DNA from: Mesorhizobium sp. 131-2-1 | GTDB taxonomy: Bacteria > Pseudomonadota > Alphaproteobacteria > Rhizobiales > Rhizobiaceae | NCBI RefSeq assembly: GCF_016756535.1 | Contig: NZ_AP023247.1 | Span: 6,696,501 to 6,760,500, forward strand | Direction: 5' to 3' | DNA: 64,000 nt | Part shown: positions 11,569 through 24,830 of the stretch, in pieces | How positions within the stretch are numbered: the stretch's first letter is position 1 | Layout: each line of letters opens with the position of its first letter | Position numbers and translations under genes: made by a program | Notes under the pieces: generated by a model | The model's database searches: none | Seen by the model: the letters and a program-made list of their open reading frames with translations, nothing else | Told to the model about the DNA's origin: nothing

Positions 11569-13671
11569 CTAGCGCGTAAAGCTCTGCGCGTTGCCGGCAT
11601 CGACGTTGATGATGTTGCCTGTCGACTTGGCCGACATGTCGGAGGCGAAGAAGTAGATCGCCTCGGCGATGTCCTCCGGGAAGACTGAGCGCTTCAGCAT
11701 CGAGCGCGAGCGGTAGTGCTCCTCCAGATCATCGGTCGACATCTTATAGGCAGCGGCGCGCTGTTCCTTCCACTCGCCAGTCCAGATCTTGGAGCCGCGC
11801 AGCACGGCGTCGGGATTGACGACGTTGACCCTGATCTGCGCCTCCGCGCCTTCAAGCGCCAGGCAGCGCGCGAGGTGGATCTCGGCCGCCTTGGCGGTGC
11901 AGTAGGCGGCGGCGTTGGGCGAAGCGGCAAGCCCGTTCTTGGAGGCGACGAAGACGACGTTGCCACCGATCTTCTGGGTGCGGAACAGCCGGAACGCCTC
12001 GCGCGAGACCAGGAAATAGCCGGTGGACAGTATGTCCATGTTCTTGTTCCACAGCGCTAGCGACGTCTCTTCGATCGGCGCCGAGGAGGCAAGGCCGGCA
12101 TTCGAGACGAGAATGTCGATGCCGCCGAACTCGACCGACGTTTCGGCGAAGCCCGCGACGACCTGGTCTTCCGACGTGACGTCGATCACCACCGGCCGCA
12201 CGAAATCCTTGCCGAAGGCCTTGGTCAGTTCCTCATTGGCGCTGGCGAGCGCCGCCTCGTCGATGTCGGCCAGCACCACGCAGGCGCCTTCGCGCAGCAG
12301 CCGGTTGGCCGTCGCGCGACCGATGCCGCCGGCGCCGCCGGTGACCAGCGCGATCTGGCCGGCCAGCGCCTTCGGCTTCGGCAGCCGCTGCAGCTTGGCT
12401 TCCTCGAGCTGCCAGTATTCGATGTCGAAAGCCTCCTGCGCCGGCAGGCCGACATAGGACGACACAGTCGAGGCGCCACGCATGACGTTGATGGCATTGA
12501 CATAGAATTCGCCGGAGATGCGGGCTGTCGCCTTGTCGCCGGCGAAGGTGAACATGCCGACGCCGGGCATCAGATAGACCACGGCATTGGGATCGCGGAT
12601 GGCGGGCGAATCCGCATGCTTGCAGCTGTCGTAATAGGCCTGGTAGCCGACGCGGTATTCGGCGATGTCGTCGGCAAGACGCGCAATGACGGCATCGACG
12701 TCGGGAGTCGCCGGATCGAACTCGATCACCAGCGGCCGGATCTTGGTGCGCAGGAAATGGTCCGGACACGAAGTGCCAAGCGCTGCCAGCGGCCGCAAAT
12801 CCCTGGAGTTGACGAATTCGAGCACGGCGGGCTGGTCGTCGAAATGGCCGAGCTTGTGGCTCTTTTCCGAGATCAGGCCGCGGATCCTCGGCATCAGCGT
12901 CGCGGCAATGGCGCGGCGCGCCGGCGCGTCGAGCGACTTCACCACCGCACCGCCGAAGATCGGCACACCGTCCGACCGGCGCTCGAACCATTCCATCGCC
13001 TGGTTGATCACCGAGATCGTCGTCTCGTAGCACTCCTTCGGCGTGTCACCCCAGGTGAACAGGCCGTGACTTTCGAGCACGACGCCTTTGGCGTCAGGAT
13101 TTTCGAGGCAGAACTTTTCCAGCCACAGACCGAGTTCGAAGCCCGGCCGCTTCCAGGGCAGCCAGCCTATGGCATCGCCAAAGATTTCCCTGGTGATCGC
13201 CTTGGAGTCCTTGGCGGCGGCAATGGCGATAATGGCGTCGGGATGCATGTGGTCGACGCAGGCTTTGGGCACGAAGGCGTGCAGCGGCGTGTCGATGGAG
13301 GCCGCGCGCGGATTGAGGTTGAAGGTGCAGTGCGGCAGGTAGCCGACCATCTCATCCTCATGCGCGAGGCCGCGATAGAGGCCTTTCAGCGCGCGCAATT
13401 TGTCCATGTAGAGCGTGGCGAAGCCATCGAGCTTGATCGAGGCGCTGTCGCCGCCGGAACCCTTGACCCACAGCACTTCCACCTCCTCGCCGGTCAGCGG
13501 GTCCTTCTGCCAGACCTTGGACGAGGTGTTGCCGCCGCCATAGTTGGTGACGCGCTTGTCGGAACCGAGCGTGTTCGAGCGATAGACCAGAAGCTCGGGG
13601 CCGCTCATCCCATTGGCCGTCGCATCAACCCACAGATTGGCGAGGCGCGAGCCGGAGCGCTTGTCGAGCAT
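11569..13671 (-). CDS. rhaD: Bifunctional rhamnulose-1-phosphate aldolase / short-chain dehydrogenase
   Basis: A 700-residue two-domain cytoplasmic enzyme. The N-terminal part (to about residue 400) is a class II aldolase domain with zinc-ligand histidines in VDHMHPDAI and a further ESHGLFTWGD motif; it should split the phosphorylated sugar to dihydroxyacetone phosphate and L-lactaldehyde. The C-terminal part (about residue 430 on) is a Rossmann dehydrogenase with VTGGAGGIGRA and the catalytic YCTAK motif, expected to oxidise lactaldehyde. The ATG at 13671 has GGGAGG at ideal spacing; upstream codons lack family sequence. It is first in the rhaDI unit, divergent from rhaR, and similar in length to R. 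leguminosarum RhaD. Confidence 0.95.
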   Translation of the reverse strand: MLDKRSGSRLANLWVDATANGMSGPELLVYRSNTLGSDKRVTNYGGGNTSSKVWQKDPLTGEEVEVLWVKGSGGDSASIKLDGFATLYMDKLRALKGLYRGLAHEDEMVGYLPHCTFNLNPRAASIDTPLHAFVPKACVDHMHPDAIIAIAAAKDSKAITREIFGDAIGWLPWKRPGFELGLWLEKFCLENPDAKGVVLESHGLFTWGDTPKECYETTISVINQAMEWFERRSDGVPIFGGAVVKSLDAPARRAIAATLMPRIRGLISEKSHKLGHFDDQPAVLEFVNSRDLRPLAALGTSCPDHFLRTKIRPLVIEFDPATPDVDAVIARLADDIAEYRVGYQAYYDSCKHADSPAIRDPNAVVYLMPGVGMFTFAGDKATARISGEFYVNAINVMRGASTVSSYVGLPAQEAFDIEYWQLEEAKLQRLPKPKALAGQIALVTGGAGGIGRATANRLLREGACVVLADIDEAALASANEELTKAFGKDFVRPVVIDVTSEDQVVAGFAETSVEFGGIDILVSNAGLASSAPIEETSLALWNKNMDILSTGYFLVSREAFRLFRTQKIGGNVVFVASKNGLAASPNAAAYCTAKAAEIHLARCLALEGAEAQIRVNVVNPDAVLRGSKIWTGEWKEQRAAAYKMSTDDLEEHYRSRSMLKRSVFPEDIAEAIYFFASDMSAKSTGNIINVDAGNAQSFTR

Positions 13672-13741
13672 GGATATCCTCCCTTGGGACGCAAAAAGGC
13701 GCGGTCCTTTTCGCGGGGAATGTCTACGCAAGCGGCGCGCT

Positions 13742-13814
13742 TGTCAATCACAAACGATCAATATCGATCATATTGCACTGCACAATGAAAATATATGATC
13801 GGAAATGATTGACA
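13742..13814. promoter_or_regulatory. Divergent rhaDI / rhaR promoters and RhaR operator region
   Basis: Two TTGACA -35 boxes face outwards: minus strand at 13747-13742 and plus strand at 13809-13814. They lie in a 9-base inverted repeat (TGTCAATCA at 13742, TGATTGACA at 13806). The plus-strand box is followed after 17 bases by CTAGAT. Between them is AT-rich DNA with a perfect dyad CAATAT-N5-ATATTG (13759-13775), a good candidate operator for the DeoR-type regulator RhaR. Confidence 0.7.
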
Positions 13815-13856
13815 CTGCTCGTTTTGAGTGCCTAGATGGCCAGGCAGGGAGGAACC

Positions 13857-14666
13857 ATGCACGAAAAAGAGCGCCACAGGATCATTCTGTCCGCCGTCCA
13901 GGAAAAGCCTGTCGTGACGGTGCAGGAAATGGTCGACCTGACCGACTCCTCGGAGGCGACGATCCGGCGCGACATCGCGGCCCTGCATGTCCAGAAGCGG
14001 TTGCGCCGGGTGCGCGGCGGCGCCGAGGCGATCTCGCCGCCGCAGTTCATTGGCCTCGCCGGCCGGCCCTTCTCGGTCAACGAGACGCTGAACGCCGCGC
14101 AGAAGCGGGCGATCGCGCGAGAAGCCGTCGACCTCTGCAAGGACGGCGAGCCGATCATCATCAATGGCGGCACCACCACCTTCCAGATGGTGCATTACCT
14201 GACCGGCCGCCGCATGCCGATCTTCACCAATTCCTTCCCGATCGCCGAGCATCTGCTGAAGCACTCGAAGAACACGGTGATGCTGTCCGGCGGCACCATC
14301 TATCGCGAGCAGAACATCATCCTGTCGCCCTTCGACAATGACGTGACGCGCAATTTCTATGCGCGCCGTATGTTCATGGGCGCGCAAGGGTTGGGGCCGC
14401 TTGGGCTGATGGAGGGCGACCCGCTGCTGATCCAGGCCGAGCAGAAGCTGATCGACCAGGCCGATGAGTTGGTGGTGCTGGTCGATTCCTCGAAATTCCG
14501 CATGCGCTCCAGCCTGATCCTCTGCGGCCTGACGCGCATCGCCACCGTGATCACCGACGACGGCATCGAGGACCGCGAAGCCAAGATGCTCGAAACCGCC
14601 GGGGTGACGCTGATCGTCGCCCGCAAGACGGCAACCGAGAAGGAAGAATCTTCACTGCAGGCCTGA
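13857..14666 (+). CDS. rhaR: DeoR-family transcriptional regulator of rhamnose genes
   Basis: A 269-residue cytoplasmic repressor-type regulator. The N-terminal winged helix (about residues 5-60) has the DeoR signature VQEMVDLTDSSEATIRRDI. The C-terminal sugar-phosphate sensing domain is isomerase-like, with IINGGTTTFQMV and a DSSKFRM motif near the end. The ATG at 13857 follows GGGAGGAACC; the alternative at 13836 would put this ribosome site inside the gene. It is the first gene of the rhaRSTPQUK unit and is divergent from rhaDI, so it probably controls both sides from 13742-13814. The likely inducer is a rhamnose pathway intermediate (inference from the family). Confidence 0.92.
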   Translation: MHEKERHRIILSAVQEKPVVTVQEMVDLTDSSEATIRRDIAALHVQKRLRRVRGGAEAISPPQFIGLAGRPFSVNETLNAAQKRAIAREAVDLCKDGEPIIINGGTTTFQMVHYLTGRRMPIFTNSFPIAEHLLKHSKNTVMLSGGTIYREQNIILSPFDNDVTRNFYARRMFMGAQGLGPLGLMEGDPLLIQAEQKLIDQADELVVLVDSSKFRMRSSLILCGLTRIATVITDDGIEDREAKMLETAGVTLIVARKTATEKEESSLQA

Positions 14667-14721
14667 GACCACCTCGCGCCCGCAGCGGCGATGGAATGCA
14701 ACGCTCAAGGGAGGATATTCG

Positions 14722-15717
14722 ATGAGCTTTTTGAAGAAACTGCTGGTTACGGCGGCCTTTTCCGCCGCCATGTTCGTGAACGGCGCCTATGCCGAGAACG
14801 TCAAGATCGCGCTGGTGGTGAAGTCGCTCGGCAACGGCTTCTTCGACGCCGCCAACAAGGGCGCCGAGGAAGCGGCCAAGGAACTGGGTGATGTCGACGT
14901 CATCTACACCGGCCCAACCAAGGCGACCGCCGAGGCGCAGATCGAGGTGATCAACTCGCTGATCGCGCAGAAGGTCAACGCGATCGCCGTTTCGGCCAAT
15001 GACGCCGACGCGCTGGTGCCGGTGCTGAAGAAGGCGATGGAACGCGGCATCACCGTGATCTCGTGGGACTCCGGCGTCGCCAAGGAAGGCCGCCAGCTCC
15101 ATCTCAACCCGTCCGACACCGGCCTGATCGGCGAGACCATCATCAAGCTCGCCGCCGACTACCTGCCGGAAGGCGGCGACGTCGCCATCCTGTCGGCCTC
15201 CTCGACCGCGACCAACCAGAACGCCTGGATCGAAGCGGCCAAGAAGGTGCTGCCGGAGAAGTTCCCGAAGATCAAGCTCGTCGCCACCGTCTACGGCGAT
15301 GACGACTCGGCCAAGAGCACGGACGAGGCCAAGGGCCTGCTCAAGTCCTATCCGAACCTCAAGGCGATCATCGCGCCGACCACCGTCGGCGTCGTCGCCG
15401 CCGCACAGGTCGTCACCGACGCGAACCTGATCGGCAAGGTCAACGTCACTGGTCTCGCGCTGCCGTCCGAGTTCAAGAAGTTCATCGACAACGGCGCCAG
15501 CCAGGCTGTCGCGCTGTGGAACCCGATCGACCTCGGCTACTCGGCGATCTATCTGGCCCACGACCTGGCGGTGAAGAAGGAAGAGGCCAAGCCCGGCGCA
15601 ACGCTGTCGATCGGCCGTGTCGGCAAGGTGACGCTCGACGACACCAACTCGGCTGCGATGGCTCCGCCCTTCCAGTTCGACAAGACCAACATCGAGAAGT
15701 TCTCCAAGATCTATTGA
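14722..15717 (+). CDS. rhaS: Rhamnose ABC transporter, periplasmic binding protein
   Basis: A 331-residue sugar-binding protein. It starts after GGGAGGATATTCG and carries a signal peptide (FLKKLLVTAAFSAAMFVNG, cleavage at AYA/EN). The mature part is a type I periplasmic-binding fold (ribose-binding family) with VVKSLGNGFFDAANKG at the first strand and ISWDSG and PTTVGVVAAAQ further on. It should deliver L-rhamnose to RhaP/RhaQ. A perfect 30-base palindrome (15737-15766) follows the stop codon and may stabilise the rhaS message, as binding proteins are needed in excess over membrane parts. Confidence 0.94.
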   Translation: MSFLKKLLVTAAFSAAMFVNGAYAENVKIALVVKSLGNGFFDAANKGAEEAAKELGDVDVIYTGPTKATAEAQIEVINSLIAQKVNAIAVSANDADALVPVLKKAMERGITVISWDSGVAKEGRQLHLNPSDTGLIGETIIKLAADYLPEGGDVAILSASSTATNQNAWIEAAKKVLPEKFPKIKLVATVYGDDDSAKSTDEAKGLLKSYPNLKAIIAPTTVGVVAAAQVVTDANLIGKVNVTGLALPSEFKKFIDNGASQAVALWNPIDLGYSAIYLAHDLAVKKEEAKPGATLSIGRVGKVTLDDTNSAAMAPPFQFDKTNIEKFSKIY

Positions 15718-15801: not shown

Positions 15802-17361
15802 ATGGACACGACAGCCCAGCACAAAGTGGAGACGGAACGGCCCGCACCTTCAGGCCCGTCCCAGAGCGCCAGCCCGCGCCTGACGCTTTCCGGCATTTCG
15901 AAAAGCTTCCCCGGTGTCCGCGCCCTGCACAATGTCAGCCTGTCGCTCTATCCGGGCCAGGTCACGGCGCTGATCGGCGAGAACGGCGCCGGCAAGTCGA
16001 CGCTGGTCAAGATCATGACCGGCATCTACCAGCCCGACGCCGGCGAAATCAGCATCGACGGCGAGGCCACGACGCTGCATAGCGCGCATGCCGCCTTCGG
16101 CCATGGCATCACCGCCATTCATCAGGAAACCGTGCTGTTCGACGATCTTTCGGTCGCCGAGAACATCTTCCTCGGCCACGCGCCGCGCACCCGCTTCGGC
16201 ACGATCGACTGGCGCACCATGCGCAAGAATGCGCGCGAGGTGCTGGAGACGATGCGCGCCGGCCATATCGATGCCGACGCAAGGCTGAAGGACCTCGGTA
16301 TCGCCAACAAGCATTTGGTTGCAGTCGCCCGCGCGATGTCGATCGATGCACGCATCGTCATCATGGACGAGCCTACCGCGGCACTGTCGATGAAGGAGAT
16401 CGAGGAGCTTTTCCTCTTGATCGAGTTCCTGAAGAGCGAAGGCAAGGCGGTGCTGTTCATCAGCCATAAGTTCGACGAGATCTACCGCATCGCCGACCGC
16501 TACACCGTCTTCCGCGACGGCGAGATGGTCGGCGAAGGCCTGCTCAAGGACGCCGGCCAGAACGAGATCGTGCGCATGATGGTCGGCCGTAACGTCGACC
16601 ATATCTTCCCGCAACGCGAGCCAAAGATCGGCGCGCCGGTGCTTTCGGTCGCCGGCCTGTCGCATCCGACCGAGTTCGACGACATCGGCTTCGAGCTGCG
16701 CAAGGGCGAGATCCTCGGCTTCTATGGACTGGTCGGCGCCGGACGCAGCGAGGTGATGCAGGCGATATCGGGTATCACCCGCACCAGTCGGGGCGCCATC
16801 ACACTTGAAGGCCAAACGATTGCGCCGAGATCGGCCGCGGATTCGATCGAGGCCGGCATCGTCTACGTGCCGGAAGAGCGCGGCAAGCAGGGCGTGGTGA
16901 TCGGGATGCCGATCTTCCAGAACGTGTCGCTGCCCTCGCTCATGCGCACCTCCAAAACCGGCGTGCTTCGGCTGGCGGAAGAGTTCGCGCTCGCCCGTTC
17001 CTACACCGAGCGCCTCGACCTGCGCGCCTCCTCGCTCAGCCAGGATGTCGGCACGCTTTCCGGCGGCAATCAGCAGAAGATCGTCATTGCCAAATGGCTG
17101 GCGACGGCGCCGAAGGTCATCATTTTGGACGAGCCGACCAAGGGCATCGACATCGGCTCCAAGGCGGCCGTGCACGGCTTCATGGCTGAGCTGGTGGCGC
17201 AAGGCCTGTCGGTGATCATGGTCTCCTCGGAGCTGCCTGAGATACTCGGCATGTCGGACCGGGTGGTCGTCATGCGCGAGGGCCGCATCGCGGCCGTGCA
17301 CGAGAACACGGGACTGGACGCCGAGACGCTGGTCAGGACGGCAGCGGGGATCGCGGCATGA
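15802..17361 (+). CDS. rhaT: Rhamnose ABC transporter, ATP-binding protein (two ABC domains)
   Basis: A 519-residue cytoplasmic ATPase with two nucleotide-binding domains. The first has Walker [10 protein letters not shown], a Q-loop region around IHQETVLFDDLSVAENIF, and Walker B VIMDEPTAALS. The second has the degenerate Walker A GLVGAGRSEV usual in sugar transporters, the signature LSGGNQQK and Walker B VIILDEPTKGIDIG. An extra 30 or so residues precede the first domain. Its stop overlaps rhaP by four bases. The symbol follows the R. leguminosarum rha locus; it is not the proton symporter RhaT of E. coli. Confidence 0.94.
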   Translation: MDTTAQHKVETERPAPSGPSQSASPRLTLSGISKSFPGVRALHNVSLSLYPGQVTALIGENGAGKSTLVKIMTGIYQPDAGEISIDGEATTLHSAHAAFGHGITAIHQETVLFDDLSVAENIFLGHAPRTRFGTIDWRTMRKNAREVLETMRAGHIDADARLKDLGIANKHLVAVARAMSIDARIVIMDEPTAALSMKEIEELFLLIEFLKSEGKAVLFISHKFDEIYRIADRYTVFRDGEMVGEGLLKDAGQNEIVRMMVGRNVDHIFPQREPKIGAPVLSVAGLSHPTEFDDIGFELRKGEILGFYGLVGAGRSEVMQAISGITRTSRGAITLEGQTIAPRSAADSIEAGIVYVPEERGKQGVVIGMPIFQNVSLPSLMRTSKTGVLRLAEEFALARSYTERLDLRASSLSQDVGTLSGGNQQKIVIAKWLATAPKVIILDEPTKGIDIGSKAAVHGFMAELVAQGLSVIMVSSELPEILGMSDRVVVMREGRIAAVHENTGLDAETLVRTAAGIAA

Positions 17362-18335
17362 AGAATTTGCGCAAATACCGCGAGATCTGGCTGCTTGCGG
17401 CAATAGCCGTGCTGATCGGGCTGATCTCGACGCGCTTTCCGGGCTTTGCCGACCTCGCCAATCTGCGACAGGTGTTCAACGACACCTCGATCCTGATGAT
17501 CCTGGCGCTCGGGCAGATGGTGGTGATCCTGACGCGCTCGATCGACCTTTCGATGGCCTCCAATCTCTGCTTCACCGGCATGGTGGTGGCGATGCTGAAT
17601 GCCGCCCATCCCGCGATCCCGATCCCGATCCTGATTGTCATCGCGCTTCTGGTCGGGCTGGTGCTCGGCGCCATAAACGGTTTCCTGGTGTGGCGGCTGA
17701 ACATCCCCTCGATCGTGGTGACGCTGGGCACGCTCACCATCTATCGCGGCGCAACCTTCGTGGTGTCCGGCGGCGCCTGGGTCAATGCCGACCAGATGAG
17801 CCCGGACTTCATCAATTTCCAGCGCGCGGCCTTCCTCGGCATCCCGGTGCTGTCCTGGATCGCCATTGCGGTGATTGCGCTGTTCTTCGTGGTGATGACG
17901 CGCACCGCGATCGGCCGCTCGATCTACGCCATCGGCGTCAATCCGACGGCGTCGGTCTATGCCGGCATTGATGTCGGCCGGACGAAATTCATCGTCTTCT
18001 GCATTTCCGGCATGATCGGCGGGCTTGCCGGCTATCTGTGGATCTCGCGCTATGTGATCGCCTCGGTCGAGGTCGCCAACGGCTATGAGCTCAACATCAT
18101 CGCCGCCTGCGTCATCGGCGGCATCTCGATCGCCGGCGGCATCGGCTCGGTCGGCGGCGCGGTGCTCGGCGCGCTGTTCCTCGGCATCATCTCCAATGCA
18201 CTGCCGGTCATCAACATCTCGCCCTTCTGGCAGATGGCGATCTCGGGCAGCGCCATCATCCTGGCGGTGGTTCTGAATGCGCGCGGCGAACGCCGCCAGG
18301 GCCGCATCATTCTCAGAAAGGCGGAAGCGGCATGA
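17358..18335 (+). CDS. rhaP: Rhamnose ABC transporter permease 1
   Basis: A 325-residue inner-membrane permease of the ribose/xylose type, with repeated hydrophobic segments from residue 10 (WLLAAIAVLIGLISTRFPG). Conserved permease sequences include IDLSMASNLCF near residue 55, LVLGAINGFLVW, and GGISIAGGIGSVGGAVLGAL near the C-terminus. It overlaps both rhaT and rhaQ by four bases, so the transporter genes are translationally coupled. It pairs with RhaQ to form the membrane channel. Confidence 0.92.
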   Translation: MKNLRKYREIWLLAAIAVLIGLISTRFPGFADLANLRQVFNDTSILMILALGQMVVILTRSIDLSMASNLCFTGMVVAMLNAAHPAIPIPILIVIALLVGLVLGAINGFLVWRLNIPSIVVTLGTLTIYRGATFVVSGGAWVNADQMSPDFINFQRAAFLGIPVLSWIAIAVIALFFVVMTRTAIGRSIYAIGVNPTASVYAGIDVGRTKFIVFCISGMIGGLAGYLWISRYVIASVEVANGYELNIIAACVIGGISIAGGIGSVGGAVLGALFLGIISNALPVINISPFWQMAISGSAIILAVVLNARGERRQGRIILRKAEAA

Positions 18336-19333
18336 CCGACGCCCCTCATCCGCGCCATATCCCCGACCGGCTCGACAAGCCGCTGTCGTCGGCGATCTTC
18401 TCCTGGGAGGCGCTCCTGGTGGTGATCGCGGTTCTCATCTTCGCGGTCAACAGCTTCGCCTCGCCCTATTTCCTCGACCCGTGGTCGCTGTCCGACCTGA
18501 CCTTCAACTTCACCGAAAAGGGGCTGATCGCGCTCGCCATGGCGCTGCTGATCATCTCGGGCGAGATCGACCTGTCGGTCGCCGCGATCGTGGCGCTCGC
18601 CTCGACGATGATGGGCATGGCCGTGCAGGCCGGCGCCGGCACGCCGGTGCTTGTCCTGATCGGCATCGTCGTCGGGCTCGGCTGCGGCGCCTTCAACGGA
18701 CTGCTGGTCACCCGGCTCGGCCTGCCCTCCATCGTCGTCACCATCGGCACGATGAGCCTGTTCCGCGGCATCGCCTTCATCATCCTCGGCGACCAGGCCT
18801 ACAAGGGCTATCCGGAAAGCTTCGCCTTCTTCGGCCAGGGATATGTCTGGTGGGTTTTCTCGTTCGAGCTGGCGCTGTTCCTCGTTGCCGCACTCGTCTA
18901 CTGGTTCGTGCTGCATCGCACGAGCTTCGGCCGGCGTGTCTTTGCCATCGGCAACAATCCGGTCGCATGCCAGTTCTCCGGCGTCCGCGTCGACCGCATC
19001 AAGTTCATCCTGTTCTGCCTGACCGGGCTGATGTCGGGCATCGCCTCGGTGCTGATCACCTCGCGGCTCGGCTCGACCCGGCCGTCGATCGCGCAGGGCT
19101 ATGAGCTCGAAGCCATCACCATGGTGGTGCTGGGCGGCGTCAGCATTCTGGGCGGCGCCGGCAGCATTCTCGGCGTCGTGCTTGCCGCCTTCATCATGGG
19201 GCTGGTGACATTTGGGCTTGGGTTGCTCAACGTGCCCGGCATCGTCATGTCGATCTTCATCGGCCTCTTGCTGATCATCGTTATCGCGCTGCCCATCCTC
19301 TGGCGGCGCCTGCGCGAGGGACGCTTCGCCTGA
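18332..19333 (+). CDS. rhaQ: Rhamnose ABC transporter permease 2
   Basis: A 333-residue paralogue of RhaP. It has a longer cytoplasmic N-terminus (about 30 residues) before the first membrane segment, then [34 protein letters not shown] and the C-terminal [20 protein letters not shown]. Its last base overlaps the first base of rhaU. Together with RhaP it should form the heterodimeric channel of the rhamnose importer. Confidence 0.92.
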
Positions 19334-19647
19334 TGGAGAAATACGCCTTCAAGATGAAGCTCGATCCCGGCATGAAGGCCGAATACAAGCGCCGCCATGA
19401 CGAGATCTGGCCGTCGCTGGTCGCGCTTCTGAAGCAGGCCGGCATTTCCGACTATTCGATCCATCTCGACGAAGAGACCAACATCCTGTTCGGCGTGCTG
19501 TGGCGGCGCGACGACCACGGCATGGCCGACCTGCCCAAGCATCCGGTGATGCAGCGCTGGTGGGCGCATATGGCCGACGTCATGGAAACCAGGGCCGACA
19601 ATGAGCCGGTGGCGGTGCCGCTGGAAACTGTGTTCCATATGGTATGA
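19333..19647 (+). CDS. rhaU: L-rhamnose mutarotase
   Basis: A 104-residue cytoplasmic enzyme that interconverts alpha and beta anomers of L-rhamnose. It shows the family pattern: [24 protein letters not shown] at the start (the histidine of RRHDEIW is the usual catalytic one), a central [13 protein letters not shown], and the tryptophan pair in [13 protein letters not shown]. Length equals the family norm. It overlaps rhaQ by one base and rhaK by four. Confidence 0.95.
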
Positions 19648-21002
19648 TCCGCCACGTCGCCGTCATCGATATCGGCAAGACCAACGCCAAGGTCGCGCTG
19701 GTCGATCTGGCGACCCTGCGCGAGACAGCCTTGCGCCGGACCGCCAACGCGCCTCTTGCCGATGGTCCCTACCCGCACCACGACGTCGAGGCCCTCTGGG
19801 CCTTCATCCTGGACAGCCTTGGCGCGATCCACCGCGAGCAGCGCATCGACGCCATATCGATCACCACGCACGGCGCGACGGCGGTGCTGGTCGACGCCGA
19901 CGGAGGCCTGGCGCTGCCGGTGCTCGACTATGAATTTTCGGGGCCTGACGACCTCGCCAAGGACTATGACGCGGTCCGCCCGCCCTTTGCCGAGACCGGC
20001 ACGCCACGCCTGCCAGCCGGCCTCAACATAGGCGCGCAGCTCTTCTGGCAGCAGAGGCGTCTCCCCGCCGAATTCAGCAAAACGGCCGCGATCCTGACGT
20101 ACCCGCAATACTGGGCGCAGCGGCTGACGGGCGTGACTGCCAACGAGGTGACATCGCTCGGCTGCCATACCGACCTGTGGAGCCCGTGGAAGTCCGATTT
20201 TTCGTCGCTGGTCGATACAATGGGCTGGCGTTCGATGATGGCGCCGGTGCGGCCGGCGAAGGATCGCCTCGGGCCGATCCTGCCGGCCCTTGCTGGGCAA
20301 ACCGGGCTCGACCCGCAAACACCGGTGTTCTGCGGGCTGCACGATTCCAACGCCTCGCTGCTGCCGCATCTCTTGTCCGACCGGCCACCCTTCTCCGTCG
20401 TCTCGACCGGCACCTGGGTGGTTTCGATGGCGGTCGGCGGCAAGAAGATCGCGCTCGACCCGGCGCGCGACACGCTGGTCAACGTCAACGCGCTCGGCGA
20501 TCCGGTGCCTTCGGCGCGCTTCATGGGCGGGCGCGAGTTCTCGTTGCTGACGGATGGCAAGCCGCAGGACTGGAGCGAGGACGACATCGCCGTCGTGCTG
20601 GCGCGCAGGACACTGCTTCTGCCCTCGACCCAGCAGGGATCGGGGCCGTATCCGCATCGCGACGCGCTATGGCTCAACGCCGACGGTCTGAGCGTCGGCG
20701 AACGTTTTGTCGCCATCTCCTTCTATCTGGCGCTGATGACCGCGACCTGCCTTGAGCTGATCGGCGGCGACGGGCCGACGACCGTCGAGGGACCTTTTGC
20801 CCGCAACCGCCTTTTCATCCGCATGCTGGCAGCGGCCACCGGGCGGCCGGTCGTCGCGTCGGAAACCGCGACAGGAACCAGCATCGGCGCCGCCCTGCTG
20901 GCGTCGGATGGTAGCGTGGCGACGGACAAGGGGGAACGGACCGAGCCACCGGCCGACCCGGCCTGGAGCGGCTATGCCCGCGCCTGGCGAACCGCTCTAT
21001 AG
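19644..21002 (+). CDS. rhaK: Rhamnose/rhamnulose kinase, FGGY family
   Basis: A 452-residue sugar kinase of the FGGY type. The N-terminal ATPase fold opens with [16 protein letters not shown], and a second phosphate motif STGTWVVSM lies near residue 256. The C-terminal part has [13 protein letters not shown] and [12 protein letters not shown], typical of the adenine-binding face. It phosphorylates the sugar before aldol cleavage; in R. leguminosarum the matching kinase is also required for transport through the linked ABC system (published for that species, assumed here). Last gene of the rhaRSTPQUK unit. Confidence 0.92.
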
Positions 21003-21115: not shown

Positions 21116-21136
21116 CATTGATTGCTCTGATCAATG
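21116..21136. promoter_or_regulatory. Inverted repeat upstream of the cupin gene
   Basis: Dyad CATTGAT-N7-ATCAATG in a distinctly AT-rich stretch, 45 bases before the cupin start. The 7-base spacer rules out a standard FNR/FixK box (which needs four), so another regulator is likely. Confidence 0.5.
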
Positions 21137-21180
21137 TAAAATGCGGATACATTTTTAATCAACCTTTCTTGGAGGCAAAG

Positions 21181-21687
21181 ATGAGCTCCACGTTCAAACC
21201 TACGCATATCGATTTCGTCGACGGCAAGAAGCGCATCGAAGAGGCCCTGGCGAAAGTCGGACACAAGATGAACTCGAGGATCCTGACGTCGAGAGACAAG
21301 GAGGCCGTGGCTCTGTGCAACCTTCTCGGCGTTCCGCGCGAGCAGCTTCCCACCGGATTTATGAAGTGGCAGTTGCCCTTCTATCTGGACGGCGGCCAGT
21401 TCTTCATCACCGCGACGGCGCCGAACGCGGAAGTCGGCGAACATTCGCACGACAATGACGGCGTCCGCTTCATCATGTCCGGTTCGGTCTACTACGACGG
21501 AATCGAACTCAATGCGGGCGACTGGATGTATATTCCGAAGGACAAGCGCTATTCGCTCAAGGTCGGGCCGCTCGGGGCAAGCATGTGTTACTGCTATTGC
21601 TGTTGCTGCGCGGGCCGCGAGCTCAACAAGAACGACCTGATCGACCCGGCGCCGTTCGTGCGCGTTCGGCAATCCCTGCAGCGGTAA
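21181..21687 (+). CDS. Cupin-domain protein with a dense cysteine cluster
   Basis: A 168-residue cytoplasmic protein beginning at an ATG after CTTGGAGGCAAAG. Residues 65-130 form a cupin barrel: GEHSHDNDG gives the HxH of motif 1 (H88, H90), although the usual glutamate is not in its normal place, and GDWMYIPKDKRYSLKVG matches motif 2 with tyrosine replacing the usual histidine. The odd part is residues 136-143, MCYCYCCCC, six cysteines in eight residues, directly after the second cupin motif. This could be a metal or redox site, but no known function is assigned. It follows rhaK but has a 178-base AT-rich gap with its own dyad, so it is probably independent. Confidence 0.75.
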   Translation: MSSTFKPTHIDFVDGKKRIEEALAKVGHKMNSRILTSRDKEAVALCNLLGVPREQLPTGFMKWQLPFYLDGGQFFITATAPNAEVGEHSHDNDGVRFIMSGSVYYDGIELNAGDWMYIPKDKRYSLKVGPLGASMCYCYCCCCAGRELNKNDLIDPAPFVRVRQSLQR

Positions 21688-21750: not shown

Positions 21751-23577
21751 TCAGAGAATCCGCTTGCCGAACGCCGACATGACGAAGTTGATCGTCTCGG
21801 TCGCCAGCTTCCGGTCCAGATCGGCCGTCAGGCCGGAAACGCTCATCGACAGCAGTCCGCCGGACAGTGCGATCGTCTCCATCGCCTGATGCGTCTCGCG
21901 CACGGTGATGCCGCCGGAGCCGGGCGCCCAGCCGGCGAACTCGGTGACCTCGGGCGCATAGGCGACGTGGAATCCTTGCGTGCCCGAGGAGGCGATGTGG
22001 ATCGCCTCGCGCATGACGTCACGCATGCCCATGGCGTCGATATCGGCCATGGTGAAGGCAGAGACACGCGAATCCGTCAGCACCCGGGCCTCGGCCGGAT
22101 CGGCATGGCGCAGCCCGACGATGACGACATTTTCCGGCGAGAGCTGCGGCAGCAAGGCGCCGGGCTTGTGGTCGAGGCCCAGCGCCCGCGCCAGCACGGA
22201 GGCCTCCGGCAGGTCGATGCTTTCGAGCTCTTCGGGCATCAGCGCGGCGATGGAGTCGATCCAGATCAGCCCGAAGGAATGGGTGGCGCGCGCGGTCGCG
22301 GCAAGTGCTGTATGGGCGACGCGGCGGTCGGCGCCGGCGGCGAGCCGGATCAGGCCCGATGGCGGCCGCTCGACATCGGCGAGTTCCACCACATCGAAAT
22401 TCATCACCTCCAGCCGTGCCCCGGTCGCCTCGCGGGCGAGGATGCCGGCGGCCGCCGGCTCGGCCGAGATGGACACCATCTTGCGCCCGGAATAGTCGGC
22501 GACATCGTGCATCGGAGCCTTCTCGACATATTCCGAGGTCATCGCCAGAAGCATGGCGCCGTAGCTCATGCGGAAGGCGACGCGGTCGCCGACGGCGGGC
22601 GGCGGGACGGCATCCTGCACGTCGAGCAGCAGATGGTCGCTGGAGGCGCCGAGCACGCGCACGCCCTTGGCGATCGGGATCAGGCCTTCGACCAGCACGT
22701 CCTCGCGGCCGATATTGGCGATTGCGCGCAGCCTGTCGCCCTCATCGGGAAACACCGGCTGGTTGCCGAACGCGTCGTAGCCGGACTGGCCGATCGGCCG
22801 CGATGGTTTCTTCTTGACTTCGATGATGTCGGCGGTCAGCCGGCAGGCATCGAACTCCAGCGCTTGCCAGGGCGGATCGCGGAAGGTTTCCAGCCCTCCC
22901 TGCAGGATCGCCTCGCCGACCCTGAGATTGTTGATGCCGGCGGGCAGCCGGCCTTCGAGCAGCAGCGGCAGCGAGGACGACGCGCCGCCGGAAATCCAGT
23001 CGAGGCTTTTGCCCGACAGACGCTCGATCTTGTAGGCATGGGCGACGAGCTGGCCGAGGTTCTCCTCGGTCGGCATGATGGCGCCGAAGCAGCCGAGATT
23101 GGTGCCGATACCGGCGATGCGCACGCCCCTCATCTCCAGGACCTGCTCGACGGTCGGCACCAGATCGTTTGGCCAGATACCTTCCCTCAGATCGCCGAGA
23201 TCGATCATCAGCATGATGTCGTGGACGCGGCCCATCCGCTCGGCGATGCGGGCGATCTCGCGGATGATCGTAAGCTCCGACTGCAGGCTGATGTCGACGG
23301 TCCGCACCACCTCCTCGACGCGGGCGATCGGCGGGCTGCGCAACAGCATCACCGGCGCATTGATGCCGCTGTCGCGCAGCCGGCGGATGTTCTCGAAGCG
23401 CGACTCCGCGATGCCGGCAACGCCGCCGCGCAGCATGGCGCGCGCCACCTGCGGCATGCCGCAGGCGCCCTTGGTGACGCCGAACACCTTGATGCCCGAC
23501 TGCGCGCAGCGCTCGACGACGGTTCGCGCATTGCGCTCGATGCGGCCAAGATCGATGGCGACTTGCGGTCCGGACAT
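21751..23577 (-). CDS. PLP amino-acid racemase fused to a degenerate arginase domain
   Basis: A 608-residue two-domain protein. Residues 1-360 are a type III PLP enzyme of the alanine/ornithine racemase (YhfX/Orr-like) group: PLP lysine K36 in KVFGVTKGACG, phosphate-binding GGASSSLPLLLEG, and RVGEAILQG. Residues 361-608 align along their length with arginase: GADRR (415-419) where arginase has GGDHS, WIDSIAA (439-445) where it has DAHAD, VAYAPEVTEFAG (538-549) where it has the SFDVDALDP metal motif, then APGSGG and TVRETHQAM, which are retained. All metal ligands except D441 are replaced, so arginase chemistry is unlikely and a regulatory or binding role is probable (inference). The gene starts two bases after the dadA-like stop, so the two are co-transcribed. 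Confidence 0.85.
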   Translation of the reverse strand: MSGPQVAIDLGRIERNARTVVERCAQSGIKVFGVTKGACGMPQVARAMLRGGVAGIAESRFENIRRLRDSGINAPVMLLRSPPIARVEEVVRTVDISLQSELTIIREIARIAERMGRVHDIMLMIDLGDLREGIWPNDLVPTVEQVLEMRGVRIAGIGTNLGCFGAIMPTEENLGQLVAHAYKIERLSGKSLDWISGGASSSLPLLLEGRLPAGINNLRVGEAILQGGLETFRDPPWQALEFDACRLTADIIEVKKKPSRPIGQSGYDAFGNQPVFPDEGDRLRAIANIGREDVLVEGLIPIAKGVRVLGASSDHLLLDVQDAVPPPAVGDRVAFRMSYGAMLLAMTSEYVEKAPMHDVADYSGRKMVSISAEPAAAGILAREATGARLEVMNFDVVELADVERPPSGLIRLAAGADRRVAHTALAATARATHSFGLIWIDSIAALMPEELESIDLPEASVLARALGLDHKPGALLPQLSPENVVIVGLRHADPAEARVLTDSRVSAFTMADIDAMGMRDVMREAIHIASSGTQGFHVAYAPEVTEFAGWAPGSGGITVRETHQAMETIALSGGLLSMSVSGLTADLDRKLATETINFVMSAFGKRIL

Positions 23578-23579
23578 CG

Positions 23580-24830
23580 CTAGTTCCTGTAAACCAGCCC
23601 CTCAGGATCGATCTCGGGCTTGCGGCCGGCGACGATGTCGGCGAGGAATTTTCCGGAGCCGCAAGCCATTGTCCAGCCGACATGGCCATGGCCGGTGTCG
23701 AGATAGAGATTGGCGTAGCGCGCCTGGCCGATCACCGGCACCGAGTTCGGCATCATCGGCCGCAACCCGGCCCAGAGTTCCGCCTTCTTCTCGTCGAAGG
23801 CGCCGGGGAACAGGTCCTTGCCGGTCCTGAACATGGCGGCGAAATCGCGGGGACGAAAGCTGCGGTCGAAGCCGGTGAACTCCGCGGTCGAGGCGAGCCG
23901 CAGCCGGTTGCCGAGCCGCGAATAGCCGATCAGCTGGTCTTCGTCGGCGCCGCCCATGGTCGGCCCCTTGCTCTCATCCTCCAGCGGGATGGTCGCGGTG
24001 TAGCCCTTCACCGGATAGACCGGCAGGTCGATGCCGTAGCGGCGGCCGAGCAGGCCGCTTTCCGGTCCCATGGAGATGACCACCGCGTCGCCGACAACCG
24101 GGCCGGCCGAGGTCATCACCGCGCGCACACGGTCGCCCTCGATCTGGAGGCCCTCGACGGTCGTGCCGAAGAGGAATTTGACGCCGAGCTTTTCGGCCGA
24201 ATAGGCGGCGAGCCTTTCCACGAACTGCCGGGAATCGCCGGTCTGGTCGATCGGCGAATAGACACCGCCGGCGATCTTGTCCCTGGCGCCGGCGAGGCCA
24301 GGCTCCAGCTCGATCAGCCGGTCGCGGCCGACGATCTCGATCGGCAGGCCGTGTTCGGCGAGATAGCGGTAGTTGTCGGTGCCGGTGTCGAGACTGTGCT
24401 GCGAGCGGAAGAAGTAGAGGATGCCCTTCTTGCGTTCGTCGTAGTGGATACCGGTCGCTTCCGAAAGCGCGTTGATGCAGTCGCGCGAATAGAGCGCCAG
24501 GCGCAACTTGACCTGGCTGTTGGCGCGCAGGCGCGCCACCGTGCACTGACGCAGGAAGCGCAGGCTCCAGGCCAGGAAATAGGGATCGAAGCGCAGCCGG
24601 ACCTTGATGCCGAGATCATGGTTCCAGAGCCCGCGCAGGAAGGTCTTCAGCGCGGCCGGCGAGGCCCAGGCGGTGGCGTCGCCCGGCGAGACAAGGCCGG
24701 CATTCGACTGGCTGGTGCCGCGCGCGGCGCTCTGGTGACGCTCGATCACCGTCACGTCATGGCCGTCGCTCGCCAGATAGTAGGCGGCCGCCGTGCCAAC
24801 GACGCCGGCTCCGAGCACCAAGACCTTCAT
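23580..24830 (-). CDS. dadA: FAD-dependent D-amino-acid dehydrogenase
   Basis: A 416-residue oxidoreductase of the DadA/glycine oxidase group. The N-terminal FAD dinucleotide fold is VLGAGVVGTAAAYYLASDG with the following acidic VIERH. The conserved TSQSNAGLVSPG loop and the C-terminal GHGHVGWTMACGSG motif are typical of D-amino-acid dehydrogenases, which oxidise D-amino acids to keto acids and pass electrons to the respiratory chain at the inner membrane. Length is close to the usual 415-435. It is first of a two-gene unit with the racemase-pseudoarginase, which suggests a D/L-amino acid (perhaps D-ornithine or D-alanine) route. The exact substrate cannot be read from sequence. Confidence 0.88.
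   Translation of the reverse strand: MKVLVLGAGVVGTAAAYYLASDGHDVTVIERHQSAARGTSQSNAGLVSPGDATAWASPAALKTFLRGLWNHDLGIKVRLRFDPYFLAWSLRFLRQCTVARLRANSQVKLRLALYSRDCINALSEATGIHYDERKKGILYFFRSQHSLDTGTDNYRYLAEHGLPIEIVGRDRLIELEPGLAGARDKIAGGVYSPIDQTGDSRQFVERLAAYSAEKLGVKFLFGTTVEGLQIEGDRVRAVMTSAGPVVGDAVVISMGPESGLLGRRYGIDLPVYPVKGYTATIPLEDESKGPTMGGADEDQLIGYSRLGNRLRLASTAEFTGFDRSFRPRDFAAMFRTGKDLFPGAFDEKKAELWAGLRPMMPNSVPVIGQARYANLYLDTGHGHVGWTMACGSGKFLADIVAGRKPEIDPEGLVYRN

Follow-up and report, generated by a model that had tools for sequence, protein, structure and literature searches.

A racemase fused to a pseudoarginase and paired with a DadA-like dehydrogenase in Mesorhizobium: a possible entry to oxidative arginine catabolism

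The fusion gene and its dehydrogenase partner

The 64,000-nucleotide stretch of Mesorhizobium sp. 131-2-1 analysed here (contig NZ_AP023247.1; the window, below) carries a gene (21751..23577) whose 608-residue product joins an Orr-like pyridoxal 5'-phosphate (PLP) racemase to a pseudoarginase and, 2 bases upstream of it, a gene for a DadA-like flavin adenine dinucleotide (FAD) D-amino-acid dehydrogenase of 416 residues (23580..24830). Both genes, and all residues of the fusion located below, lie on the minus strand. The racemase domain (residues 4-353; 22519..23568) belongs to the fold-III PLP enzymes of the alanine-racemase superfamily, as judged from NF040742, from PF01168 (93.9 bits over residues 8-224, gathering score 24.1) and from Foldseek, which matches this half to alanine racemases. 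Its K36 (codon 23470..23472), which by position we take to be the PLP lysine, is a lysine in 68 of 68 aligned fusions. The pseudoarginase domain (residues 365-608; 21754..22485) passes the gathering score of PF00491, the ureohydrolase/arginase superfamily, and has its fold.

The alignment behind these counts holds 68 fusions including the window's own gene (L008; L and G numbers are our labels for loci and genomes), 66 of them distinct sequences, and 28 after removal of redundancy. It leaves out L007, which is the same gene as L008, the broken, cut or partial L078, L094, L095, L098, L101 and L102, the plain arginase L103, and the stand-alone L017-L026. The predicted model of the fusion is of moderate quality (predicted local distance difference test 77.2, predicted template-modelling score 0.53) and the mutual placing of its two domains was not used; the VIA rows span only about residues 354-608, and the racemase half was judged by Foldseek and sequence.

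The dehydrogenase passes NF001933 (455.8 bits, cut-off 383), and a gene of this kind is the immediate upstream neighbour of the fusion, in the same orientation, at 64 of the 67 loci that could be assessed, within 20 bases in 55 and at 189-373 bases in 9; L058 could not be judged for this neighbour. The linked dehydrogenase of the window genome is a separate copy, the best other DadA-type match there being 45% identical; the genomes of L085 and L086 have, away from the fusion, a best DadA match of 44% identity. Two public records (NZ_CP132312.1 and NZ_CP084753.1) annotate the fusion as 'alanine racemase' and the dehydrogenase as 'D-amino acid dehydrogenase', to which a term for D-alanine is attached. 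These names and the DadA model would suit alanine catabolism of the DadAX kind, or a pair of broad specificity, with a decorative C-terminal domain, but the window fusion falls far under the cut-off of the alanine-racemase model (TIGR00492, 32 bits against 168), the genome has other DadA-type copies, and related operons, described below, point to guanidino compounds; we regard this alternative as very improbable.

A lost metal site in a conserved domain

For arginase itself the C-terminal domain does not reach the cut-off (TIGR01229, 70.4 bits against 227.6), and one of the six metal ligands is left. Aligned with Bacillus caldovelox arginase (1cev), H99 is replaced by R418 (22324..22326), H124 by I443, D126 by A445, D226 by A541 and D228 by E543, so that D441 (22255..22257), the counterpart of D122, is the sole ligand retained. 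The pattern recurs across the 68 fusions: the D122 position is Asp in all 68, that of H99 is His in 3, of H124 His in 1 and of D228 Asp in 10, and those of D126 and D226 are Asp in none. One ligand remains in 54 and two in 14, never more, and no fusion with intact metal ligands was found among the 68 aligned, the additional genomes of the genus (the 71-genome match set described below) not having been inspected for ligands. The substrate loop has fared no better, with 1cev S135, G136, N137, H139 and G140 kept in 3, 2, 0, 0 and 3 of 28 fusions, and E271, which corresponds to G582 in the window fusion, is kept in none of the 28. Because metal ligands, substrate loop and E271 have gone, arginase activity of the domain is very unlikely and, on the same sequence grounds, arginine is unlikely to bind in the classical pose in the former catalytic pocket.

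The domain has nonetheless been kept. Among 105 pairs drawn from 15 Mesorhizobium-group sequences, residues 361-608 have a median ratio of nonsynonymous to synonymous substitution rates (dN/dS) of 0.127 and residues 1-354 one of 0.096, and for six Aminobacter pairs it is 0.102 and 0.070 for the C- and N-terminal domains, respectively. Both domains are thus under purifying selection, and these values, somewhat above those of the racemase half for the C-terminal domain, together with conservation at full length, led us to reject a decaying C-terminal domain. At E <= 1e-100, 71 of 146 genomes of the window's genus gave a match, 66 of them full length and 5 partial or split. The following claims of the earlier note on this DNA were borne out: a racemase with its lysine intact, an arginase-like domain that has lost its metal site, two domains that stay together in relatives and a dadA-type neighbour conserved beside them.

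In the order sample the fusion was found in 9 of 397 genomes (own genome counted). The class sample (385 genomes, E <= 1e-30) gave 13 matches besides the own genome, all stand-alone, and the phylum sample (398 genomes, E <= 1e-50) gave 14, of which 10 are stand-alone and 4, all in the window's family, are fused; outside the order neither of the latter two samples contained a fusion, only stand-alone relatives. The three samples overlap in genomes and each covers part of its group. Named relatives include Mesorhizobium, Aminobacter and Aestuariivirga, besides plasmids of Shinella and of two records that bear the labels Roseateles sp. XES5 and Sinorhizobium sp. RAC02. A Betaproteobacterial fusion, which the Roseateles label would imply, was rejected: the record carries the flag UNVERIFIED_ORG, its operon proteins share 91-97% identity with those of Shinella, and we take it for a mislabelled relative. 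The most distant fusion, in G095, is 41% identical.

The stand-alone Orr-like racemases of Alphaproteobacteria have a context of their own. At all 12 of the loci in which the racemase was called (14 fetched, 23 known), namely L123-L127, L129-L134 and L136, the gene directly upstream is of one family. The one member scanned is a DUF1611 protein (DgcN model 170 bits, cut-off 480), and in four plasmid records (matches H8, H9, H14 and H16) a DUF1611 gene is annotated under the match. Stand-alone racemase and DUF1611-type gene look like a conserved two-gene unit.

Racemase substrate and operons in other genera

The nearest family model for residues 4-353 is Orr, ornithine racemase (NF040742), at 393.9 bits under a cut-off of 480, and three further fusions score 335.3, 400.9 and 416.5 bits. 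The racemase domain is 42.7% identical to an Acetoanaerobium protein, and in a tree of 35 rows including 11 fusions (row L018 was dropped as too short) 10 of the 11 group with that protein and an annotated Ilyobacter Orr, the support of 88/80 not being strong and the branches long. L183 and L184 have the motif DAFGN in common with the fusion, and L183 also has its CFGAI, where L184 has CYGAV. Orr proteins are in other respects unlike the fusion, being stand-alone, about 350 residues long and in another gene context. By alignment, the site of the second catalytic Tyr of alanine racemases would fall within residues 266-268; it is occupied by Y, F, I, V or R in the fusions, no stand-alone row has Tyr there, and so the opposite-face base of this racemase family is not obvious.

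The likeness to Orr lends some weight to an ornithine link, which the earlier note had proposed. L-ornithine (or ornithine and lysine) would be racemised to the D-form and D-ornithine oxidised by the DadA-like enzyme to 2-oxo-5-aminovalerate, which cyclises, the pseudoarginase being a relic of an arginase that had supplied ornithine within the same polypeptide; Orr is the best family model, most fusions group, if weakly, with the Ilyobacter protein, and a racemase-arginase fusion makes chemical sense as an ancestor. Set against this are a score under the Orr cut-off, an intact metal site in 0 of 68 aligned fusions and the genes around the pair in other genera.

In two plasmid records, NZ_CP132312 of Shinella zoogloeoides and NZ_CP084753, the NCBI annotation gives, in order, a divergent Lrp regulator, an amino acid permease, a universal stress protein, agmatinase, 5-guanidino-2-oxopentanoate decarboxylase, aldehyde dehydrogenase, a 'biotin carboxylase' (ATP-grasp), a C45 peptidase, D-amino acid dehydrogenase, the fusion and a RidA family protein. 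With the Shinella proteins as tblastn queries, the genes for universal stress protein, ureohydrolase, decarboxylase, aldehyde dehydrogenase, ATP-grasp, C45, DadA, fusion and Rid were found in this order in L117, L118 and L119; L120 has the permease, the universal stress protein and the decarboxylase through the fusion, with no ureohydrolase and no Rid; and L091, L093 and L088 run from decarboxylase or aldehyde dehydrogenase through the fusion within the available stretch, again with no Rid. The Rid protein occurs in five loci of this longer operon and scores 50.6, below the RidA-type cut-off of 106.25. The L117 decarboxylase passes NF005712 (731.3 bits, cut-off 500) and the L117 ureohydrolase passes TIGR01230 agmatinase (215.9, cut-off 174.3). 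G336 has ureohydrolase, DadA and fusion in order, and in G095 an agmatinase-type gene (379.9, cut-off 302) adjoins the fusion, near what by eye are ATP-binding cassette (ABC) transporter genes, the presumed binding protein of which matched no NCBIfam model.

ATP-grasp and C45 genes lie between aldehyde dehydrogenase and DadA in nine loci (L117, at 12207-14764, L118-L120, L088, L091, L093, L181 and L182), and a search of 19 genomes at E <= 1e-30 gave the ATP-grasp gene in four, exactly those with the longer operon.

Since AruI-type decarboxylase and ureohydrolase genes, which act on guanidino compounds, neighbour the pair in other genera, we prefer arginine as the likelier substrate of the racemase, and ornithine, rather unlikely on this evidence, is set aside as first choice. 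The fusion is a probable arginine racemase on these genomic grounds. Its N-terminal domain would racemise L-arginine, and perhaps other basic amino acids too, and the DadA-like flavoprotein would oxidise D-arginine to iminoarginine, which yields 2-ketoarginine. In the genera with the fuller operon, Rid, 2-ketoarginine decarboxylase, aldehyde dehydrogenase and the agmatinase-type ureohydrolase, which we read as a guanidinobutyrase, would then lead by way of 4-guanidinobutyraldehyde and 4-guanidinobutyrate to gamma-aminobutyrate (GABA) and urea. Completion of the pathway in the window genome is something we infer, because only its first two enzymes adjoin there and AruI-type genes occur with and without the fusion.

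Alternatively, the pseudoarginase might pair with a neighbouring active ureohydrolase, in the manner of MetCb and MetCa, and so join the first and last steps in one complex. A linked ureohydrolase is present in G121, G150, G198, G336 and G095 and in two plasmid records, and MetCb is likewise reported to lack five of six ligands (PMC11271267). The linked enzymes are agmatinase-type, however, and by eye are without the R-E residues of arginases; in the window, L079, L085 and L086 no such gene was found close to the racemase and dehydrogenase genes (other Mesorhizobium loci were not searched), and the best ureohydrolase copy of L120 (82%) is elsewhere in its genome. We consider such a pairing improbable.

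Several observations stand beside this argument. AruI does not mark the fusion within the family: 22 of 29 chosen genomes pass the cut-off, and AruI copies in the fetched loci of the genus Mesorhizobium have other neighbours. The surroundings of an AruI-type decarboxylase gene at G000:C1:330787-332364 (L149; 785.7 bits) include a gene for a protein with an arginine-deiminase domain (PF02274) and what by eye is a TetR-like regulator; G336 has similar neighbours (L152), and this neighbourhood is possibly another guanidino pathway. Beside the locus in the window, genes for a sugar ABC transporter (ATPase and two permeases, by eye) and then an FGGY-type kinase occupy 15802-21002 on the plus strand; they adjoin the locus in most compared Mesorhizobium loci and not in Aminobacter loci. 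A cupin-like gene (21118-21687, plus strand) lies between the sugar-kinase gene and the fusion and has the same place only in L075 among the compared relatives.

Retained interface residues and what the dead domain may do

If the domain is dead, what has been kept of it? Fifty-one columns are invariant in 12 arginases (1cev and 11 of 16 extracted sequences, omitting the agmatinase-like L001, L002 and L004 and the short L033 and L036), and each of the 28 non-redundant fusions, as each of a subset of 13 diverse ones, retains the same ten of these: D122, G173, D199, G202, G245, R249, E250, E256, S292 and G295 in 1cev numbering. They include the counterparts of D514 (22036..22038; 1cev D199), R560-E561 (21895..21900; R249-E250) and E567 (21877..21879; E256), which are invariant in 68 of 68 fusions. 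By alignment we take these to be human Asp204, Arg255-Glu256 and Glu262. The chance that three interface residues named in the literature should all fall among 10 of 51 is 0.0058, a guide only, as the residues were picked after the data had been seen.

In human arginase Arg308, in the S-shaped tail, is described as bridging Glu262 and, in rat, Asp204 of the adjacent subunit, and the Bacillus caldovelox enzyme, which lacks an equivalent of Arg308, as binding L-arginine in the same inter-subunit region (PMC7925462). Glu256 and Asp204 are also named in connection with the human oligomer in a title cited by PMC11271267. By alignment, then, what is kept corresponds to part of the subunit interface, with two residues at the inter-subunit arginine place of the Bacillus arginase. 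The fusion likewise has no S-tail, its C-terminus coinciding with the Bacillus end (residue 608 on 1cev 299). Fold, tail-less C-terminus and the interface residues D199, R249, E250 and E256 are thus common to the two proteins, which differ in the active site lost from the fusion and in 1cev E278, discussed below.

We speculate that the dead arginase has most likely been kept for a non-catalytic role, that of its interface. Hydrolysing nothing, it would hold racemase dimers in a larger assembly, and may tune activity to arginine at the inter-subunit site and not in the dead pocket, so that, as far as sequence can indicate, it is possibly an oligomerisation module that also senses arginine. Fold-III racemases work as dimers. 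Arginases are reported in states from monomer to hexamer (PMC7370999, PMC6988801), so the fusion could build a complex of more subunits. The suggestion of the earlier note that the pseudoarginase senses arginine or ornithine has accordingly to change its place: the old pocket has been lost, and the inter-subunit arginine place is partly kept. A bolder proposal would be an arginine-gated racemase, in which the pocket was surrendered and arginine at the retained inter-subunit place assembles or activates the racemase, opening the D-arginine dehydrogenase/2-ketoarginine route. We think this doubtful; if true, an enzyme would have become an allosteric sensor of its former substrate by way of its interface and not its active site.

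We put the reading as a whole, in which the two enzymes open an oxidative arginine pathway and the dead arginase serves as oligomerisation platform, at a little under one half (roughly 0.48), and a number of points weigh against it. The closest racemase model is an ornithine and not an arginine racemase, and the long-branched L016 falls outside the other fusions and among stand-alone rows, so that the 11 fusions in the tree need two changes, with which a single origin is still compatible. An adjacent DadA is missing at L085, L086 and L016 (3 of 67 loci). Decarboxylase, ureohydrolase and Rid genes were not found beside the pair within the 64 kb window, and the AruI-type gene of the window genome is elsewhere, next to an arginine-deiminase-like gene; of the chosen genomes, 14 of 20 that lack the fusion pass the AruI-type model, compared with 8 of the 9 that have it. 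The linked ureohydrolases score above the cut-off of an agmatinase model, guanidinobutyrate being their presumed substrate, and the operon contains two enzymes that the proposed pathway does not need, one of the ATP-grasp type (NF005096, named biotin carboxylase) and the other a C45 autoproteolytic hydrolase. As to the platform, the retained interface residues are invariant in arginases at large, so folding may explain their retention, and bacterial arginases are reported to vary between monomer and hexamer (PMC6988801). Replacement of E278 by Ala is reported to break the hexamer of Bacillus arginase (PMC11271267), and this position is Glu in 9 of 12 arginases and 1 of 28 fusions.

The loss of E278 led us to rate the platform and sensor readings lower, and to rate higher the alternative that the C-terminal domain is a passive element for stability or for docking, on DadA or the membrane, which neither binds a ligand nor forms an oligomer of the arginase kind. 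The vanished substrate pocket also suits a passive element, as does the report that the decarboxylase domain of the Oda fusion, considered below, is active alone and rescues growth (PMC8503589, PMC12826042). The selective retention of the other interface residues argues in the opposite direction, and we hold a passive domain to be a real possibility that falls short of even odds.

The nearest precedent is Oda of Fusobacterium, in which an ornithine decarboxylase carries a non-functional arginase (PMC8503589, PMC12826042). In Oda, as in the present fusion, a PLP enzyme for basic amino acids is followed at the C-terminal end by an arginase domain that is missing metal ligands. According to those reports, however, it is a decarboxylase of the aspartate-aminotransferase fold with two Asp ligands replaced and forms a single-gene unit, whereas here a fold-III racemase (PF01168) precedes a domain with five of six ligands changed and is paired with a DadA-like gene. 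A further relative of the ureohydrolases is MetCb of the metformin hydrolase MetCaCb, from Aminobacter, which also has the racemase fusion. Five of the six metal ligands of MetCb are changed, and it has been kept to bind another protein, the active partner that needs it; it is described as a separate protein that pairs with an active ureohydrolase and has no PLP enzyme attached (PMC11271267). For the pathway, the precedent is DauA of P. aeruginosa, which with Rid proteins is reported to convert D-arginine to iminoarginine and 2-ketoarginine (PMC5619798). This is the same stretch that we predict here, with an AruI-type 2-ketoarginine decarboxylase as a further known counterpart, but there DauB turns 2-ketoarginine into L-arginine, whereas here a racemase is predicted, the dehydrogenase fits the DadA model and the Rid protein is under the RidA-type cut-off. 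A racemase with an arginase domain was not found described in the open-licence literature. The statement of the earlier note that no such system had been described therefore stands for the exact form, in the literature searched, and has to be qualified by Oda and MetCb, from which the fusion differs in PLP fold, context and pattern of retained interface residues.

On our reading, rhizobia and their relatives would have an arginine racemase that is as yet uncharacterised, and an operon for a little-studied route of arginine catabolism. The fusion would be a second, seemingly independent case, in another PLP fold and another phylum, of a basic-amino-acid PLP enzyme with a dead arginase. This raises the question of what dead arginase domains are retained for, and the contrast between a lost pocket and a kept interface lends itself to mutation.

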